A DNA stretch of 13,474 bases from positions 1-13,474 of the forward strand of contig JAKEEN010000046.1 in the NCBI GenBank assembly GCA_022616575.1. The letters are read 5' to 3'. Position numbers and translations under genes: made by a program. Shown piece after piece: positions 6,081 to 12,811 of the stretch. Source of the stretch: Flammeovirgaceae bacterium. GTDB lineage: Bacteria > Bacteroidota > Bacteroidia > Cytophagales > Cyclobacteriaceae. Under the pieces are notes generated by a model, which was not told the origin of the DNA, made no database searches, and saw nothing but the letters and a program-made list of their open reading frames with translations. Position 1 is the first letter of the stretch, and the number at the start of each line of letters is the position of its first letter.

Positions 6081-7469
6081 TTAGTACCCGAGTAATTGCA
6101 GCATACTTTCCTGACTTTGCTCAGGCGCGAAAAGCTTGGTTGTTATTTCTCCATCCTCATTTCTATCAATGAGAACGTGCTTAGGTGCGGGAATTAAGCA
6201 ATGTTGAATCCCCCCATAACCACCGAGCGATTCCTGATATGCACCGGTATGGAAGAATCCGATATAAAGCGGTTCTTCATCAGTAATCATGGGTAAGAAA
6301 ACTTCACCAGTATGTGCTTCTGAGTTATAGTAATCGTGGCTGTCGCACGTGAGGCCACCCAGGTTTACTTTGTGGAATGGATCGTCCCATTTGTTAAGCG
6401 CCAGCAAAACATATTTTTGATTGAGACCCCAGGCATCTGGTAAATGCGTGATGAACGAGCCGTCAATCATGTACCAAAGCTCTTTATCGTTTTGCAGTTT
6501 CTGGTCAACAAGTGAATATAGAACAGCCCCACTTTCTCCTACCGTGTAGCTTCCAAATTCCGTAAAGATGTTTGGAACAGGAACATTATTTTTTTCACAG
6601 ATCCATTTGATGTTTTCCACGATCTGTTCGATCATATACTTATAATCATACTGGAATGTGAGTGAAGTTTTTATCGGGAAGCCACCACCAATATCGATCG
6701 AGTCAAGCGAATCGCAAATCTTTTTCAATTCACAATACTTGAAGATAAAGCGACTCAATTCGCTCCAGTAATAAGCAGTGTCCTTAATTCCGGTATTAAT
6801 AAAGAAGTGAAGCATCTTAAGCGATGCCTTTTCGCTATTTTGAATTTTCTCTTTATAAAAATTGGTAATGTCACTATAGCGGATGCCTAAGCGGGAAGTA
6901 TAAAATTCAAAATTGGGTTCTTCATCGGCAGCCACGCGAATGCCTACCTGGTATGGATTCTTTACATTCTTCTCATAGGTGTCGATTTCCCGCAGGTTAT
7001 CAAGAATCGGAATACAGTTTTTAAATCCATCGTTGAGCAGATCCGTAATGTATTTTAAATACAAGGGCATTTTAAAACCATTGCAAATTACATACGTGTC
7101 TTTCGTGATTTTCCCTTTTTCAAACAAGGAACGTACAATTGGAATATCATATGATGAAGAAGTTTCAAGATGTACATCATTCTTCAACGCTTCTTCCATC
7201 ACAAAAGAAAAATGTGATGACTTCGAGCAATAACAATACGTGTATTTGCCATTGTACTTAAACCGCTCCATGGCATTGTTGAAGGTAGCCTGTACAAAAC
7301 GGATGTTTTCACTGATGCGTGGAAGGTACGTTAGCTTCAATGGGGTGCCATACTGTTTAATGATATCCACCAGGGGTACATCGTTAAACAACAACTCATG
7401 GTCACGCACTTTAAATTCTTTTTGTGGGAACTCAAACGTCTGTTCTATAAGCTCACGATAGCTCTTCAT
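6081..7469 (-). CDS. speA: Arginine decarboxylase, short PLP-dependent fold-III type
   Basis: A 462-residue alanine-racemase-fold decarboxylase predicted to convert arginine to agmatine and CO2, the first step of polyamine synthesis. Visible features: barrel start with the PLP-binding lysine in TYCYCSKSSHF (K83), VHLETSSSYDIP (99-110), CNGFK (129-133), SRLGIRY (192-198), the glycine-rich phosphate-binding DIGGGFP (259-265), EFGSYTVGESG (304-314, in place of the more usual EPGR), then the C-terminal beta domain with the active-site CDSHD (375-379) and GAYQESLGGYGG (409-420). It is much shorter than E. coli SpeA (about 630-660 residues). It is the 460-residue form I associate with Bacteroidota. 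Diaminopimelate or carboxynorspermidine decarboxylase would be shorter and have different signatures. ATG at 7469 abuts an octamer array. Divergent orientation to the ureohydrolase and DHS-like genes supports a polyamine role. Confidence 0.85.
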   Translation of the reverse strand: MKSYRELIEQTFEFPQKEFKVRDHELLFNDVPLVDIIKQYGTPLKLTYLPRISENIRFVQATFNNAMERFKYNGKYTYCYCSKSSHFSFVMEEALKNDVHLETSSSYDIPIVRSLFEKGKITKDTYVICNGFKMPLYLKYITDLLNDGFKNCIPILDNLREIDTYEKNVKNPYQVGIRVAADEEPNFEFYTSRLGIRYSDITNFYKEKIQNSEKASLKMLHFFINTGIKDTAYYWSELSRFIFKYCELKKICDSLDSIDIGGGFPIKTSLTFQYDYKYMIEQIVENIKWICEKNNVPVPNIFTEFGSYTVGESGAVLYSLVDQKLQNDKELWYMIDGSFITHLPDAWGLNQKYVLLALNKWDDPFHKVNLGGLTCDSHDYYNSEAHTGEVFLPMITDEEPLYIGFFHTGAYQESLGGYGGIQHCLIPAPKHVLIDRNEDGEITTKLFAPEQSQESMLQLLGY

Positions 7470-7597
7470 TCCGTTAATTCGTTGATTAGTTGATCCGTCA
7501 ATTCGGTGATTTTGATTTTGTTGATTTAGTGGCCATCCGATGGTTGCGTACTGGGCATCAACGAATTAACCAGTCAACGAATCACCGAATCAACAAA
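7470..7597. repeat. Inverted pair of octamer arrays in the speA upstream region
   Basis: Here the unit is 8 bp. Left arm 7470-7525: TCCGTTAA, TTCGTTGA, TTAGTTGA, TCCGTCAA, TTCGGTGA, TTTTGATT, TTGTTGAT. Right arm 7558-7597: TCAACGAA, TTAACCAG, TCAACGAA, TCACCGAA, TCAACAAA, i.e. the complement of the left units. The left arm starts at the base next to the speA start codon (7469) and in the speA sense reads A/C-rich. The 32-bp loop contains CCATCCGATGG. Transcripts from either side could fold into a long imperfect hairpin. Confidence 0.8.
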
Positions 7598-7614
7598 GGA
7601 GTGCAATATTGGGA

Positions 7615-7622
7615 TAATTTTG
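7615..7622 (+). promoter_or_regulatory. Candidate -7 box for the ureohydrolase gene
   Basis: TAATTTTG is an exact match to the Bacteroidota -7 consensus TAnnTTTG. It would start transcription near 7628-7632 and give a leader of about 165 nt before the GTG at 7794. A weaker overlapping candidate, CATCTTTG, lies at 7624-7631. No TTG box is found about 20 bp upstream, where the octamer array ends. Confidence 0.35.
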
Positions 7623-7628
7623 CCATCT

Positions 7629-7793
7629 TTGCAACGCGAAAAAAGCATGGTTAACCTATCCTACATACAGCATTTTGCCCCGGTCTATAGCGGGACATTC
7701 GCATTGCCAGACTTCTAAGTGGGCCGCGCTGGATGGCTTTTTGGGCCATTGGATTTAACCTCGTTTTCCTTATTTAACTATTAATTCATTTTT
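7629..7793 (+). promoter_or_regulatory. Possible structured leader with a 23-codon ORF upstream of the ureohydrolase
   Basis: Together with the array and promoter box, this fills the 324-bp gap between speA and the ureohydrolase. It holds an ATG at 7647 with 23 codons (MVNLSYIQHF...FALPDF) to TAA at 7716-7718. Short inverted pairs include CCCG/CGGG (7679-7682 with 7691-7694) and ATGGC/GCCAT (7733-7737 with 7745-7749). This part appears richer in G and C than the AT-rich text before the GTG start. It may be an attenuator, a leader peptide or a riboswitch-like element, or simply untranslated sequence. I recognise no known RNA family. Confidence 0.3.
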
Positions 7794-8759
7794 GTGAATA
7801 CCAATATTAAAATCATTGAAGTAAAATCAGAGATCGGTGCCGGTACCCGCGGGGCAAGTCTGGGCGTAGAAGCTATGAAAATAGCCAGCCTCGACCTGAA
7901 GTCAGACTTCTTCAAGCAATATGATTCTGTGGAAGTAGAGAACGTGAATGAAATGCTTTATGATGGTGCTGAACATGCTCACGCAAAATTTATTGATGGT
8001 GTGCTGATCATGGAAGAACGTGTGTGCCTGGAGGTATATGAAACGATCTTCGATGAATTTTTTCCGCTTGTCATGGCGGGCGATCATAGCACGGCCTATG
8101 GAACGATTGCAGGTATCAAAAAAGCATACCCTAAAAAACGACTTGGAGTTATTTGGATTGATGCGCACGCGGATTTACATTCGCCATACACAACACCTTC
8201 AGGCAATATGCATGGCATGCCTTTAGCCATGGCTTTCGGATTTGATAATCTTGAATGTAAAGTGAACGATCCGAAGGGAGAAACCCTTGATTATTGGGAA
8301 CAGATTAAAAACGTGGGTATTCCCGGAGCTAAGATTTTTACAGAGGATTTAGTTTTCATTTCAGTCCGTGATTTCGAAAAGCCGGAAAATTATTTGATTA
8401 ATAAGTATAACATCAACTTTATTGAAACCGATGATGTGAAGAAGGCAGGTTCTGCTGCGATTGCAAAAAAAGCACTCGAAATGCTCGACCACTGCGATCT
8501 TATTTATGTTTCCTTTGATGTAGACAGTATGGATTCCCGAATCTCGACCGGAACCGGTACACCTGTACCCAACGGCCTCACAATTGATGAAGCGAAGGTA
8601 TTAAACGCTGAGTTGGTTAAGAGCCCGAAAGTGTGTGCATGGGAAATTGTAGAAGTTAATCCAACGCTCGATACAGAAAACCGCATGGCCGAGAGTGCTT
8701 TCGAAATCCTTGAAGCAACCGGAAAATCGATCGTTGACAGACCCGTATTGGCTGAGTAA
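7794..8759 (+). CDS. Arginase/agmatinase-family ureohydrolase, agmatinase by context
   Basis: A 321-residue binuclear-manganese ureohydrolase releasing urea from a guanidino substrate. Metal-ligand motifs are complete: AGDHS (H98), DAHAD (D123, H125, D127), SFDVD (D242, D244). SGNMHGMPLA (136-145), TGTGTPVPNGL (252-262) and VEVNP (286-290) complete the family pattern. SGNxHGMPLA and TGTPV are closer to arginases than to E. coli-type agmatinase SpeB, so sequence alone would suggest arginine to ornithine. The location between an arginine decarboxylase and a DHS-like enzyme argues instead for agmatine to putrescine. Formiminoglutamase is a third possibility but no histidine-degradation genes are near. 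Start is GTG at 7794 (NTNIKIIEVKSEIG), preceded by AT-rich sequence without a Shine-Dalgarno; no ATG lies before the conserved N-terminus. A rho-independent terminator follows. Confidence 0.82.
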   Translation: MNTNIKIIEVKSEIGAGTRGASLGVEAMKIASLDLKSDFFKQYDSVEVENVNEMLYDGAEHAHAKFIDGVLIMEERVCLEVYETIFDEFFPLVMAGDHSTAYGTIAGIKKAYPKKRLGVIWIDAHADLHSPYTTPSGNMHGMPLAMAFGFDNLECKVNDPKGETLDYWEQIKNVGIPGAKIFTEDLVFISVRDFEKPENYLINKYNINFIETDDVKKAGSAAIAKKALEMLDHCDLIYVSFDVDSMDSRISTGTGTPVPNGLTIDEAKVLNAELVKSPKVCAWEIVEVNPTLDTENRMAESAFEILEATGKSIVDRPVLAE

Positions 8760-8787
8760 AGCCAACCAAAAAACTTAACAAATTAAG

Positions 8788-8809
8788 AGGGGAGTACTTC
8801 CCCTTTTTT
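8788..8809 (+). terminator. Rho-independent terminator after the ureohydrolase gene
   Basis: A 6-bp stem AGGGGA (8788-8793) and TCCCCT (8799-8804) with loop GTACT is followed by a run of T to 8809. It lies 29 bp after the TAA and 31 bp before the next ATG. It should end or reduce transcription into the DHS-like gene, which may therefore have its own promoter (TATTTTCG-like text just downstream) or rely on readthrough. Confidence 0.75.
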
Positions 8810-8839
8810 ATTTATTTTCGCACCAAATTTTAGAACACC

Positions 8840-9817
8840 ATGAGCCAGAACAGACCTATTTCAGCCTTCATTGAGAAGCACTACCTACACTTTAATGCAG
8901 CCGCATTGGTAGATGCTGCCAAAGGGTATAAAAAACATATTGCCGATGGAAAGAAAATGATGGTGACCCTGGCCGGTGCCATGAGTACGGGTGAATTGGG
9001 CATCAGCTTCGCTGAGATGATTCGTCAAAACAAAGTGCATATCATTTCTTGTACCGGTGCCAACCTGGAAGAAGATATTATGAACCTGGTGGCCCACACG
9101 CATTATAAGCGCATTCCGAATTACCGTGATCTTACACCTGAGCAGGAATGGGATTTACTACAAAATCATTTGAACCGTGTAACGGATACTTGTATTCCCG
9201 AAGAGGAAGCTTTCAGAAAATTACAGGCCCACTTATTTAAAGTCTGGAAAGATGCTGAAGATAAAGGTGAGCGCTTATTTCCCCACGAGTTTATGTTCCG
9301 TTTGTTGAACAGCGGTGAGTTGAAACAATACTTTGAAATTGATCCTAAGAACTCCTGGATGATTGCCGCGGCCGAGAAAAATATGCCAATGGTTGTTCCC
9401 GGATGGGAAGACTCTACCATGGGTAACATCTTTGCGTCTTATTGTGTAACAGGAGAACTGAAAGCATCAACGATGAAGTCAGGCATTGAGTATATGGTGT
9501 GGTTAGCCGATTGGTACACAAAAAATTCCGGCAAAGAGGGCATTGGTTTCTTCCAGATTGGTGGAGGTATTGCCGGTGATTTCCCGATTTGTGTGGTGCC
9601 TATGTTGCACCAGGATCTTGAGCGCGATGGGGTTCCTTTCTGGAGTTACTTCTGCCAGATCAGCGATTCAACCACCAGTTATGGTTCGTATTCGGGTGCT
9701 GTTCCGAACGAAAAAATTACGTGGGGGAAATTAAGCATTGAAACTCCCAAGTATATCATTGAAAGCGATGCAACCATTGTGGCACCGCTCATCTTTGCTT
9801 ATATTTTAGATATGTGA
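8840..9817 (+). CDS. Deoxyhypusine-synthase-like protein, candidate homospermidine synthase
   Basis: A 325-residue NAD-dependent DHS-family protein. Visible hallmarks: LAGAMSTGELG (45-54) and SCTGANLEEDI (70-80, matching eukaryotic TTAGGVEEDLI), GGGIAGD (241-247), and C-terminal SYSGAVPNEKITWGKL (283-298). Against human DHS, the imine-forming Lys329 is K297, Trp327 is W295 and Glu323 is E291. The catalytic-pocket His288 aligns with D247, and Asp316, which holds an amine end of spermidine, with Y284. Bacteria lack eIF5A, so the acceptor must differ. DHS chemistry (aminobutyl transfer via NAD) on putrescine would yield homospermidine, a polyamine reported in Flavobacterium-Cytophaga relatives. 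The two genes upstream could supply putrescine. Length is shorter than human (369). The alignment is by eye and from memory; substrate is inference. Confidence 0.85.
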   Translation: MSQNRPISAFIEKHYLHFNAAALVDAAKGYKKHIADGKKMMVTLAGAMSTGELGISFAEMIRQNKVHIISCTGANLEEDIMNLVAHTHYKRIPNYRDLTPEQEWDLLQNHLNRVTDTCIPEEEAFRKLQAHLFKVWKDAEDKGERLFPHEFMFRLLNSGELKQYFEIDPKNSWMIAAAEKNMPMVVPGWEDSTMGNIFASYCVTGELKASTMKSGIEYMVWLADWYTKNSGKEGIGFFQIGGGIAGDFPICVVPMLHQDLERDGVPFWSYFCQISDSTTSYGSYSGAVPNEKITWGKLSIETPKYIIESDATIVAPLIFAYILDM

Positions 9818-9820
9818 TAT

Positions 9821-9888
9821 TCGTTGATCGTTGATCGTTGTTCGTTAATAGCGCGTACTAACAACGAACAACGAACAACCAACAACGA
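9821..9888. repeat. Inverted pair of four-unit heptamer arrays before argS
   Basis: The left arm has TCGTTGA, TCGTTGA, TCGTTGT, TCGTTAA (9821-9848). The right arm has ACAACGA, ACAACGA, ACAACCA, ACAACGA (9861-9888), the complement of the TCGTTGT unit, around a 12-bp loop that contains GCGC. The right arm ends five bases (TTTAA) before the argS ATG. The hairpin also lies four bases after the DHS-like stop, but no T-run follows, so it is not a classic terminator. Confidence 0.85.
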
Positions 9889-9893
9889 TTTAA

Positions 9894-11681
9894 ATGAGTT
9901 TAGAATCAACACTTCGCTCTGAAATCCAAAAAGCAGTATCTGTGCTGTTCAATCAATCCATTGATCAGCTTCAGATTCAACCAACCAACCAGGAGTTTGA
10001 AGGATCTCATACATTGGTCTGTTTTGGGTTATCAAAGGTGACAAAGAAAAACCCGGAAGAAACGGCAAAGTCCATTGGCGAGTATCTTCTTGCCAATTCA
10101 ACAAGGGTATCAAAATTTAATGTTGTAAAGGGTTTTCTAAACCTGACACTTTCTGATAAAGTGTGGTTCGATGTTTTTAAAGACATTCAGGCAAATTCAT
10201 CATTCGGACAACTGACATTAACCGGTGAAGAAATCATGATTGAGTATTCTTCACCGAATACCAACAAGCCGCTTCACTTAGGTCACCTGCGAAATAATTT
10301 TCTTGGCTATAGTGTCAGCGAAATTTATAAAGCCTGTGGCTACCAAGTGCATCGCGTGCAGATCATTAACGATCGGGGTATTCATATCTGTAAGTCGATG
10401 GCCGCGTGGAAATTGTATGGGAATGGTGAGACGCCACAAAGTTCTGGAATCAAGGGAGACCATTTAGTGGGTAAGTATTACGTGGAGTTTGATAAGCGAT
10501 TTAAGTCGCAGGTAAGTGAGGCAGTGAGTAAGGGAGTAGGTGAGGAGGAAGCGCAGAAACAGTCACCGATTATGCGCGAAGCGGTAGAAATGCTTCAGAA
10601 ATGGGAGCAAGGCGATGAAGAAACATTGAAGTTGTGGAAGACCATGAATGGTTGGGTGTATGATGGATTCAATGCCACCTATAAAGCGATGGGCGTTGAG
10701 TTTGATAAACTCTATTACGAATCAAACACCTACCTGCTTGGGAAAGAAGAAGTGTTGAAGGGATTAGAAAGTGGCGTGTTCTTTAAAAAGGAAGATGGCT
10801 CTGTGTGGGTTGATCTGACCAGTGATGGCCTTGATCAAAAAGTATTATTGCGTGCGGATGGAACTTCGGTATATATTACGCAGGATATTGGCACAGCCAT
10901 TCTTCGCTTTCATGATTACCCAAAAATATCCGGCCAGATTTATACGGTGGGTAACGAACAAGAGTATCACTTCAAAGTCTTGTTTTTGATTTTGAAAAAA
11001 CTTGGATTCAAGTGGGCGGAGCATTGTTTCCATTTATCGTACGGCATGGTGGATTTACCAACAGGCAAAATGAAGTCACGTGAAGGTACCGTGGTGGATG
11101 CCGATGATCTCATGGCCGAAATGATTGCCAAAGCAAAACGGCAAACCCTTGAATTGGGTAAGACCGATGAGATGAGCGAAGAGGAAGCAACTCAACTCTT
11201 CGAAATGGTCGGGTTGGGGGCGCTGAAGTTTTTTTTGCTGAAAGTAGATCCCAAGAAGCGCATGCTTTTCGATCCGAATGAATCCATTCAACTGCAAGGA
11301 TTCACCGGACCGTTTATTCAATATACGCACGCTCGCATCAAAGCGATTGTACGAAAAGGAGAAAGCATGAATATCAGATTTGATAGTGGTGACTTTTCTG
11401 CTGTGCAGAATTTGGAACCGGCAGAACGTGAAGTACTCAAAGTGCTTTCGCTTTACGAAAACAAAGTAAAAGAGGCAGCCCGTGAATATGCCCCTTCGAT
11501 CATCGCTAATTATGCCTATGAGTTAGCGAAAGAGTATAATCAGTTTTATCAGAATATTCCCATTTTCAATGCAACGGACCCGGCACAACTGGCATTTAGA
11601 ATAGCGCTTTCGAAGAAGGTGGCGGATATTCTTAAAAAGGCAATGGCACTTCTGGGAATTCGCGTACCTGAAAGGATGTAG
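9894..11681 (+). CDS. argS: Arginyl-tRNA synthetase
   Basis: A 595-residue class I aminoacyl-tRNA synthetase charging tRNA-Arg. The N-terminal Add1-like domain covers about residues 1-100. The HIGH box appears as HLGH (128-131) within EYSSPNTNKPLHLGHLRNN, followed by QIINDRGIHICKSM (156-169). YITQDIGTA (327-334) and GNEQEYHF (353-360) are typical of ArgRS, and the KMSKS loop reads KMKSREG (392-398), a usual ArgRS variant. The C-terminal DALR-type anticodon-binding helix bundle begins near FIQYTHARIKAI (474-485) and ends in ALLGIRVPERM, as in full-length family members. Length fits the family. The ATG start follows an inverted heptamer array and has no Shine-Dalgarno. It is an essential housekeeping gene and shares the substrate arginine with the adjacent arginine decarboxylase; a regulatory link is not shown. 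Confidence 0.95.
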   Translation: MSLESTLRSEIQKAVSVLFNQSIDQLQIQPTNQEFEGSHTLVCFGLSKVTKKNPEETAKSIGEYLLANSTRVSKFNVVKGFLNLTLSDKVWFDVFKDIQANSSFGQLTLTGEEIMIEYSSPNTNKPLHLGHLRNNFLGYSVSEIYKACGYQVHRVQIINDRGIHICKSMAAWKLYGNGETPQSSGIKGDHLVGKYYVEFDKRFKSQVSEAVSKGVGEEEAQKQSPIMREAVEMLQKWEQGDEETLKLWKTMNGWVYDGFNATYKAMGVEFDKLYYESNTYLLGKEEVLKGLESGVFFKKEDGSVWVDLTSDGLDQKVLLRADGTSVYITQDIGTAILRFHDYPKISGQIYTVGNEQEYHFKVLFLILKKLGFKWAEHCFHLSYGMVDLPTGKMKSREGTVVDADDLMAEMIAKAKRQTLELGKTDEMSEEEATQLFEMVGLGALKFFLLKVDPKKRMLFDPNESIQLQGFTGPFIQYTHARIKAIVRKGESMNIRFDSGDFSAVQNLEPAEREVLKVLSLYENKVKEAAREYAPSIIANYAYELAKEYNQFYQNIPIFNATDPAQLAFRIALSKKVADILKKAMALLGIRVPERM

Positions 11682-11723: not shown

Positions 11724-11772
11724 ATTAAACATTTTGTTAAAAAATGTTGTTTCACTAAAAATTAACGAACGT

Positions 11773-12261
11773 ATGAAACTCTTTGTAACCATTTTATTTA
11801 TTGGCATGACAAGCATCGGTTCTATTTACGACTTCAAAATTAATTCACTGGATGGTAAGCAAATTGATTTTGCCCAGTACAAAGACAAGACCCTTTTGAT
11901 TGTAAACACCGCGTCTGAGTGTGGGTATACTCCACAATATGCTGATTTACAAAAATTACACGAGCAATACGGCCAGAAAATAACCATATTAGGATTCCCT
12001 GCCAACAATTTTGGAGGCCAGGAACCCGGTACCAACGATCAAATTGCTACTTTCTGCAAGCAGAATTATGGTGTTACCTTTCAGATGTTTGAAAAAATTT
12101 CAGTGAAGGGAGAAGACCAGCATCCCTTATATCAATGGCTGAAAGAAAAAACGGGTAACGAACCTACCTGGAATTTCTGCAAGTACCTGGTGAAGCCGGA
12201 TGGCACGGTAAAATTCTTTAATCAAAAAGCAAAACCGCTTGACATTGCGCAGGAGTTATAA
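11773..12261 (+). CDS. Glutathione peroxidase family protein (thioredoxin-type), exported, copy 1
   Basis: A 162-residue GPx-fold thiol peroxidase reducing hydroperoxides. The start is ATG 11773; a TTG at 11734 would add 13 residues before a good signal-like segment (MKLFVTILFIGMTSIGS), so the shorter form is preferred and export or membrane anchoring is likely. Catalytic residues: peroxidatic Cys50 in NTASECGYT, Gln83 in FGGQEPG, Trp133-Asn134 in TWNFCKYL. The codon for Cys50 is TGT, so this is not a selenoprotein. The usual FPCNQF is FPANNF, but Cys95 in ATFCKQNYGVTF matches the resolving Cys of thioredoxin-dependent 2-Cys GPx such as yeast Gpx3 Cys82; reduction by thioredoxin is therefore likelier than by glutathione. 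Its C-terminus (KPLDIAQEL) stops about 7 residues sooner than copy 2. It overlaps copy 2 by up to 23 bases. Confidence 0.88.
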   Translation: MKLFVTILFIGMTSIGSIYDFKINSLDGKQIDFAQYKDKTLLIVNTASECGYTPQYADLQKLHEQYGQKITILGFPANNFGGQEPGTNDQIATFCKQNYGVTFQMFEKISVKGEDQHPLYQWLKEKTGNEPTWNFCKYLVKPDGTVKFFNQKAKPLDIAQEL

Positions 12262-12811
12262 ATATATATTTCTGGGAATCATCATCGTTATGGGATTAGG
12301 TGCCTTTCTTACTTCAACATTCTCAATCAACAAGAAACCGGTAACCGGTTCGATTTATGATTTCAAGATGAAATCACTAACCGGGCAAGAAATTGATTTC
12401 TCACAATACAGAGGAAAGGCACTGATGATTGTTAACACTGCATCTAAGTGCGGTTACACGTATCAATATGCTGATTTACAAAAACTGCACGAACAATATG
12501 GTCATCAGATCACCATCTTGGGATTTCCGGCAAACAATTTTTTATGGCAGGAGCCCGGATCCAACGGTGATATTGCGGAGTTCTGTCAGATCAATTACGG
12601 AGTCACATTTCAAATGTTTGAGAAAATATCAGTGAAGGGCAATGATCAACACCCGTTGTATCAATGGCTCGAAGCCAAATCAGGCAAAGCGCCTTCATGG
12701 AATTTCTGTAAATACATCATCGATAAAAACGGAAATGTGGTTTCCTTCTTCGGTAAAAAAGTAAGACCCATCGATAAGGAAATAGTCGATAAAATTCTAT
12801 CGATCAACTGA
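12239..12811 (+). CDS. Glutathione peroxidase family protein, membrane-anchored or exported, copy 2
   Basis: A tandem paralogue of the preceding gene, about 70% identical by eye over the GPx domain. Catalytic pattern: NTASKCGYT (peroxidatic Cys), QEPG (Gln), SWNFCKYI (Trp-Asn), and EFCQINYGVTF with the resolving Cys. The two glycines before the catalytic Gln in copy 1 (FGGQ) are Leu-Trp here (FLWQ), right beside the active site. The N-terminus has a hydrophobic helix (YIFLGIIIVMGLGAFLTSTF) after basic residues, so it is a signal anchor or signal peptide. The start is uncertain: TTG 12239 (used here), TTG 12245, or ATG 12290. The ATG would cut the hydrophobic helix in half, so an upstream start overlapping copy 1 is favoured. 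The stop is one base before the menA ATG, making an operon with it. Confidence 0.85.
   Translation: MTLRRSYKYIFLGIIIVMGLGAFLTSTFSINKKPVTGSIYDFKMKSLTGQEIDFSQYRGKALMIVNTASKCGYTYQYADLQKLHEQYGHQITILGFPANNFLWQEPGSNGDIAEFCQINYGVTFQMFEKISVKGNDQHPLYQWLEAKSGKAPSWNFCKYIIDKNGNVVSFFGKKVRPIDKEIVDKILSIN

Follow-up and report, generated by a model that had tools for sequence, protein, structure and literature searches.

Plant homospermidine synthase belongs to the deoxyhypusine synthase (DHS) fold family, derives from a DHS-like ancestor and uses spermidine as its donor. Among bacteria, the DHS-like protein SpeY is a homospermidine synthase according to the available portions of PMC9992855 and PMC10385936, and the accessible text of PMC10981699 describes a further DHS homologue, the Thermus caldomycin synthase CdmS, which uses agmatine as substrate and couples it with itself. 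In the same text, the bacterial homospermidine synthase (HSS) of the Blastochloris type is structurally largely unlike the DHS type. The part of PMC7226451 that could be consulted places one end of spermidine at Asp316 of human DHS and the other at Asp243 and Asn292, with Trp327 over the middle amine and His288 as the proposed proton acceptor/donor. Thermus CdmS shows a change of these anchors, with F204 and L286 corresponding to Asp243 and Asp316 (PMC10981699, available text). Among the papers listed by a literature search, with subscription journals mostly outside its reach, there was no publication assigning homospermidine synthesis to a Bacteroidota DHS-like gene.

We analysed a 13,474-nucleotide stretch of a Flammeovirgaceae bacterium genome (contig JAKEEN010000046.1), here called the window, which encodes a 325-amino acid DHS-family protein on the forward strand (positions 8840-9817). 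This protein exceeds the curated Pfam score for the DHS superfamily (PF01916), has the DHS fold and carries the catalytic residues K297, W295 and E291. It scores below the cut-offs of all NCBIfam DHS-type models: 101.8 bits for NF001980 (homospermidine biosynthesis protein; cut-off 450), 86.5 bits for TIGR00321 (deoxyhypusine synthase; cut-off 304.25) and 78.6 bits for NF002699 (bis(guanidino)-azanonane synthase; cut-off 500). The protein thus falls outside the equivalog families of both SpeY, which we take to be the Anabaena protein behind NF001980, and CdmS (NF002699). Genes of this type are named 'deoxyhypusine synthase' by several public sources. The plasmid collection gave no match (P0001), and no Rfam family matched the window above its gathering score. 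From its gene context, its active site and the distribution of its relatives, we assign the gene, with a probability of about 0.8, as a homospermidine synthase of the Bacteroidota lineage that joins putrescine to putrescine; its product is very probably an enzyme of this kind and not a protein modifier.

An alignment with human DHS bore out the catalytic correspondences proposed by an earlier sequence-only reading. K297 (codon at 9728-9730, forward strand) aligns with Lys329, the imine lysine, and the segment E291-W295 (9710-9724, forward strand) with Glu323-Trp327; the K, E and W are present in 129/129 sequences, comprising 86 window-type, 8 SpeY-like and 35 CdmS-like members grouped by score and alignment, among which three of the SpeY-like and four of the CdmS-like were scanned against the models. 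The same alignment confirmed the proposed replacement of His288 by D247 (9578-9580, forward strand) and of Asp316 by Y284 (9689-9691, forward strand), and showed that Asp243 is changed too, to N196 (9425-9427, forward strand). These substitutions are nearly invariant in the Bacteroidota type, with D in 86/86, Y in 85/86 (one F) and N in 86/86 sequences, respectively. At positions 288, 316 and 243, all eight SpeY-like sequences have N, L and M, and the CdmS-like sequences have N (35/35), L (34/35, with one C) and F (35/35). The altered polyamine contacts to which the earlier reading drew attention are therefore real but not special: because the SpeY-like and CdmS-like relatives, including the three and four model-scanned members, are also without them, loss of the His288 and Asp316 contacts marks bacterial DHS-like enzymes generally. 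The replacement residues D/Y/N, however, are particular to the window-type clade. The I/N to V/D motif of plant homospermidine synthase, as given in the available part of PMC5873419, found no placement on the present alignment.

The window protein resembles SpeY in family membership, in the catalytic K/W/E, in the lost His288 and Asp316 contacts, in an arginine-agmatine-putrescine gene context and in homospermidine as the product proposed here. It differs in being only 21-22% identical to the SpeY-like sequences (the Anabaena sequence itself lying outside the comparison), in having D, Y, N and E at positions 288, 316, 243 and 137 where SpeY-like sequences have N, L, M and H, and in forming a supported clade of its own, which sits on a long branch. 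Because of this low identity and the low NF001980 score, the activity was assigned by context. CdmS likewise shares the family and the K/W/E and has replacements at Asp243 and Asp316, but the window protein reaches little of the NF002699 cut-off, the CdmS-like relatives (the Thermus sequence being outside the comparison) have F, N and L at 243, 288 and 316, and the Thermus enzyme acts on agmatine (PMC10981699, available text). From eukaryotic and archaeal deoxyhypusine synthases the protein is set apart by its TIGR00321 score, by the replacement of H288, D316 and D243 and by its genome context, in which the eIF5A partner was not found (198 genomes). Plant homospermidine synthase, for which no sequence entered the comparison, shares the fold family and the proposed product but has a spermidine donor, for which most window-type genomes lack marker genes, and bacterial HSS shares the proposed product and NAD use on a largely different structure.

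DHS homologues were found in 159 of 198 genomes searched from the same phylum and were missing from 39, and an E-value division of the 159 gave 71 genomes of the window type and 88 of other types. A scan of ten relatives from the phylum put three above the NF001980 cut-off and four above that of NF002699; the remaining three, two window-type sequences and L120, exceed none. L120 (G128) is a DHS-family protein on a very long branch. Identity to the window protein is 77-94% among the best 80 of 592 confirmed reference-genome loci and 66-69% in five outer-branch copies; the window type is a strongly conserved Bacteroidota clade. In a 37-row tree, 16 window-type, 8 SpeY-like and 9 CdmS-like rows formed three separate clades, with supports of 100/100, 100/99 and 97/96, all on long stems. 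A tentative reading, which we hold to be somewhat less probable than its opposite, is that Bacteroidota recruited a DHS-like homospermidine synthase independently of SpeY and CdmS. DHS-fold homospermidine synthesis would then have arisen several times, each origin removing the same spermidine anchors and refilling their places with different residues (D/Y/N here). Three supported clades on long stems neither prove nor exclude separate origins, and independent origin as an established result was dropped because the tree program issued a long-branch warning (stem 6.74, L120 4.26). As to the convergence with the plant enzyme suggested by the sequence-only reading, plants are not the sole parallel, given that bacterial SpeY is already known (PMC9992855 and PMC10385936, in the portions available).

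Two further observations concern individual copies. G154 carries a second, diverged window-type DHS gene (L127:3125-4096) with F in place of Y284, adjoining genes whose open reading frames resemble the binding protein, the permease and the ATPase of an ABC importer; this copy may act on another substrate. Window-type genes also occur on two contigs with unexpected labels, L011 (Bifidobacterium breve) and L073 (Rickettsiales), whose assemblies are probably misbinned or misnamed.

Upstream in the window, a 462-amino acid PLP-dependent protein encoded on the reverse strand (6081-7469) is a probable arginine decarboxylase: it scores 146.1 bits with the speA model TIGR01273 (below the cut-off of 624.1), and its best PDB matches are the biosynthetic arginine decarboxylases 3n2o and 3nzq. 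The next gene (7794-8759, forward strand) encodes a 321-amino acid arginase-family protein. In a correction to the earlier claim of putrescine-making neighbours, it is arginase-like and not agmatinase-like: it scores 227.3 of the 227.6 bits demanded by the arginase model TIGR01229 and only 74 of 174.3 with the agmatinase model TIGR01230. Arginase-like matches occur at 3/81 loci compared, the window's own included, many of these loci being partial. The active-site loops of the protein are like those of the other same-family homologues compared. Among 32 arginase-family loci (the window's copy counted once), H occupies the position of human N130 in 31 and E that of human D183 in all 32, both of which are arginine head-group contact positions. 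Differences from human arginase are thus general in the family, and the idea of a specialised agmatinase or caldomycin hydrolase is unsupported. An operon of the arginase-like and DHS genes is doubtful, given the few loci with an arginase-like match and a terminator-like hairpin with T run between the two genes (8785-8807, forward strand; 10 pairs, 4 of them G-C). The hairpin itself is only suggestive, since region 7400-9950 has five matches of this kind where shuffled sequences average 2.8. The window genome, which is 53% complete, gave no AguA match and no AguB match at E<=1e-60; a 352-amino acid agmatinase-like protein that it encodes (G000:C20, L162:446-1504), just below the cut-off at 158.8 of 174.3 bits, is a candidate for its agmatine-to-putrescine step. 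Further downstream (11734-12811) lie two tandem glutathione-peroxidase-like genes, whose called reading frames overlap at 12239-12261 and have TTG starts, so that their true starts are unsure.

The clearest gene order among relatives is that of the outer branch. In the five outer-branch genomes (G030, G085, G135, G179 and G183, from families f24, f28 and f38), the DHS-like gene lies together with speA, aguB and aguA on one strand, and in G183 the adjoining reading frames overlap by 4, 4 and 8 bases. SpeA is above its NCBIfam cut-off in all five clusters, and AguB and AguA are best-named matches below strict cut-offs; all three partner proteins were scanned in G183, G085 and G030, and SpeA and AguB in G179 and G135, where AguA was recognised by a PF04371 hit next to them. 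At all 12 active-site positions compared, 5/5 of these relatives have the residues of the window protein. The outer-branch cluster comprises a full arginine-to-putrescine route plus the DHS-like gene. In the window-type genomes at large, 53 have a window-type decarboxylase. Of the 47 with both positions available, 29, all from four families (f1, f7, f8 and f22), have it no more than 6 kb from the DHS gene, and 12/47 have an over-cut-off agmatinase at such a distance. G187 has the order decarboxylase, agmatinase, DHS, with SpeD and SpeE genes divergent.

The proximity of the decarboxylase, which in G170 is adjacent to the DHS gene with none between, would also suit an enzyme that works as CdmS does (PMC10981699, available text), coupling two agmatines to a bis-guanidino product from which a ureohydrolase releases homospermidine. 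We consider such agmatine homocoupling improbable. It would need a ureohydrolase afterwards, and the routes from agmatine vary: 28 of the 71 window-type genomes have only an over-cut-off agmatinase, 26 only AguA and AguB, 10 both and 7 neither (the incomplete window genome is one of these). Calls of AguA and AguB used our own thresholds of 260 and 280 bits; the strict AguB cut-off is reached in 0/198 genomes. Of the 26 AguA/AguB-only genomes, 15 lack any agmatinase-family match at E<=1e-15 (G021, G025, G049, G068, G080, G085, G099, G108, G135, G138, G142, G154, G170, G174 and G179). Putrescine is the shared product of both agmatine routes, and a DHS-like enzyme could take it from either with hardly any change. 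Co-occurrence with AguA/AguB alone is no proof of putrescine use, because the combination of AguA/AguB with no over-cut-off agmatinase also occurs in 71/88 genomes of the other DHS types, and 4/8 such DHS proteins scanned match the agmatine-coupling model NF002699. For this reason, the stronger evidence comes from the outer-branch clusters, in which speA, aguB and aguA accompany the DHS gene, and the F243, N288 and L316 of CdmS-like sequences are absent from the window protein. A separate case is L082 (G032), which passes NF002699 although its genome has AguA and AguB but no over-cut-off agmatinase; here the NF002699 name may be over-extended, or both systems may coexist.

Spermidine markers, defined as SpeD (PF02675) or an over-cut-off carboxyspermidine decarboxylase (TIGR01047), were then compared with the distribution of DHS homologues across the 198 genomes. 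They are present in 32/39 DHS-negative genomes and 18/159 DHS-positive ones (Fisher p 1.5e-17, relatedness ignored). Because the 32 genomes spread over nine families (f3, f8, f9, f12, f15, f17, f20, f22 and f30), the pattern suggests that the pathway swap occurred more than once. The other seven DHS-negative genomes (G081, G103, G134, G147, G151, G167 and G195) have neither marker. Among the window-type genomes, SpeD homologues occur in 9/71, with scores of >=100 bits in five of the nine, and 62/71 have neither marker; SpeD is an imperfect marker because some homologues elsewhere are arginine or ornithine decarboxylases (PMC10407285, available part). Judged by these genes, most window-type genomes seem to make no spermidine. 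This weighs against a plant-type reaction, the transfer of an aminobutyl group from spermidine to putrescine, which the common fold and catalytic lysine would permit but which we regard as very unlikely, since the human spermidine anchors D316 and D243 (PMC7226451, available part) are also replaced here. Still less credible is a deoxyhypusine-like reaction that aminobutylates a lysine of some protein, for which EF-P would be an example; protein-lysine modification, an idea of the sequence-only reading, found no support. The retained DHS fold and catalytic core are compatible with it, and 77-94% identity among the best 80 of 592 loci would suit a housekeeping modification. However, it would predict neither the clustering with polyamine genes nor the complementarity with spermidine markers, and eIF5A (PF01287) was found in 0/198 genomes, the window's own 53% complete genome included. 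The sensitivity of this search was limited, as the Sulfolobus acidocaldarius and Methanosarcina acetivorans controls were matched and those of Methanocaldococcus jannaschii and Haloferax volcanii were missed.

Bacteroidota taxonomy uses homospermidine as a chemical marker. In the available part of PMC8570120, the homospermidine content of two Flavobacterium type strains is 27.3 and 20.5 umol per g dry weight, against 0.7 and 0.2 umol putrescine and 0.2 and 0.3 umol spermidine, and according to the available part of PMC3072086 the major polyamine is homospermidine in Weeksella virosa as well as in all Flavobacteriaceae members. The gene is carried by Flavobacterium other than the two measured strains (L023, L024, L044, L047 and L074). 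In the accessible portions of two Bacteroidetes taxonomy papers (PMC5167729 and PMC6767994), no polyamine word appears.

Together with the gene clusters and the spermidine-marker complementarity, these published Flavobacterium profiles lend good support to the proposal, already made from the sequence, that two putrescines are joined to homospermidine. In the proposed pathway, the decarboxylase (6081-7469 in the window) would convert arginine to agmatine, and an agmatinase or AguA with AguB, depending on the genome, would yield putrescine. The DHS-like enzyme would oxidise one putrescine with bound NAD, form an imine between K297 and the aminobutyl group and transfer this group to a second putrescine, and a final reduction would give sym-homospermidine and regenerate NAD. 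We infer the imine mechanism and NAD cycle from DHS and SpeY chemistry, and the use of putrescine as both donor and acceptor from gene context. With about the same confidence as for the function itself, we view the protein as a DHS-fold homospermidine synthase that would work like SpeY yet stands outside the SpeY model family, a distinct and widespread variant.

The label 'deoxyhypusine synthase' is misleading in bacteria, and, if the assignment is true, databases need a new family name. One gene would then account for a main polyamine in much of the phylum, and the clade would represent a further natural route from a protein-modifying to a small-amine active site. The interchangeability of homospermidine and spermidine would also become testable, because the two pathways appear to have replaced each other between lineages.
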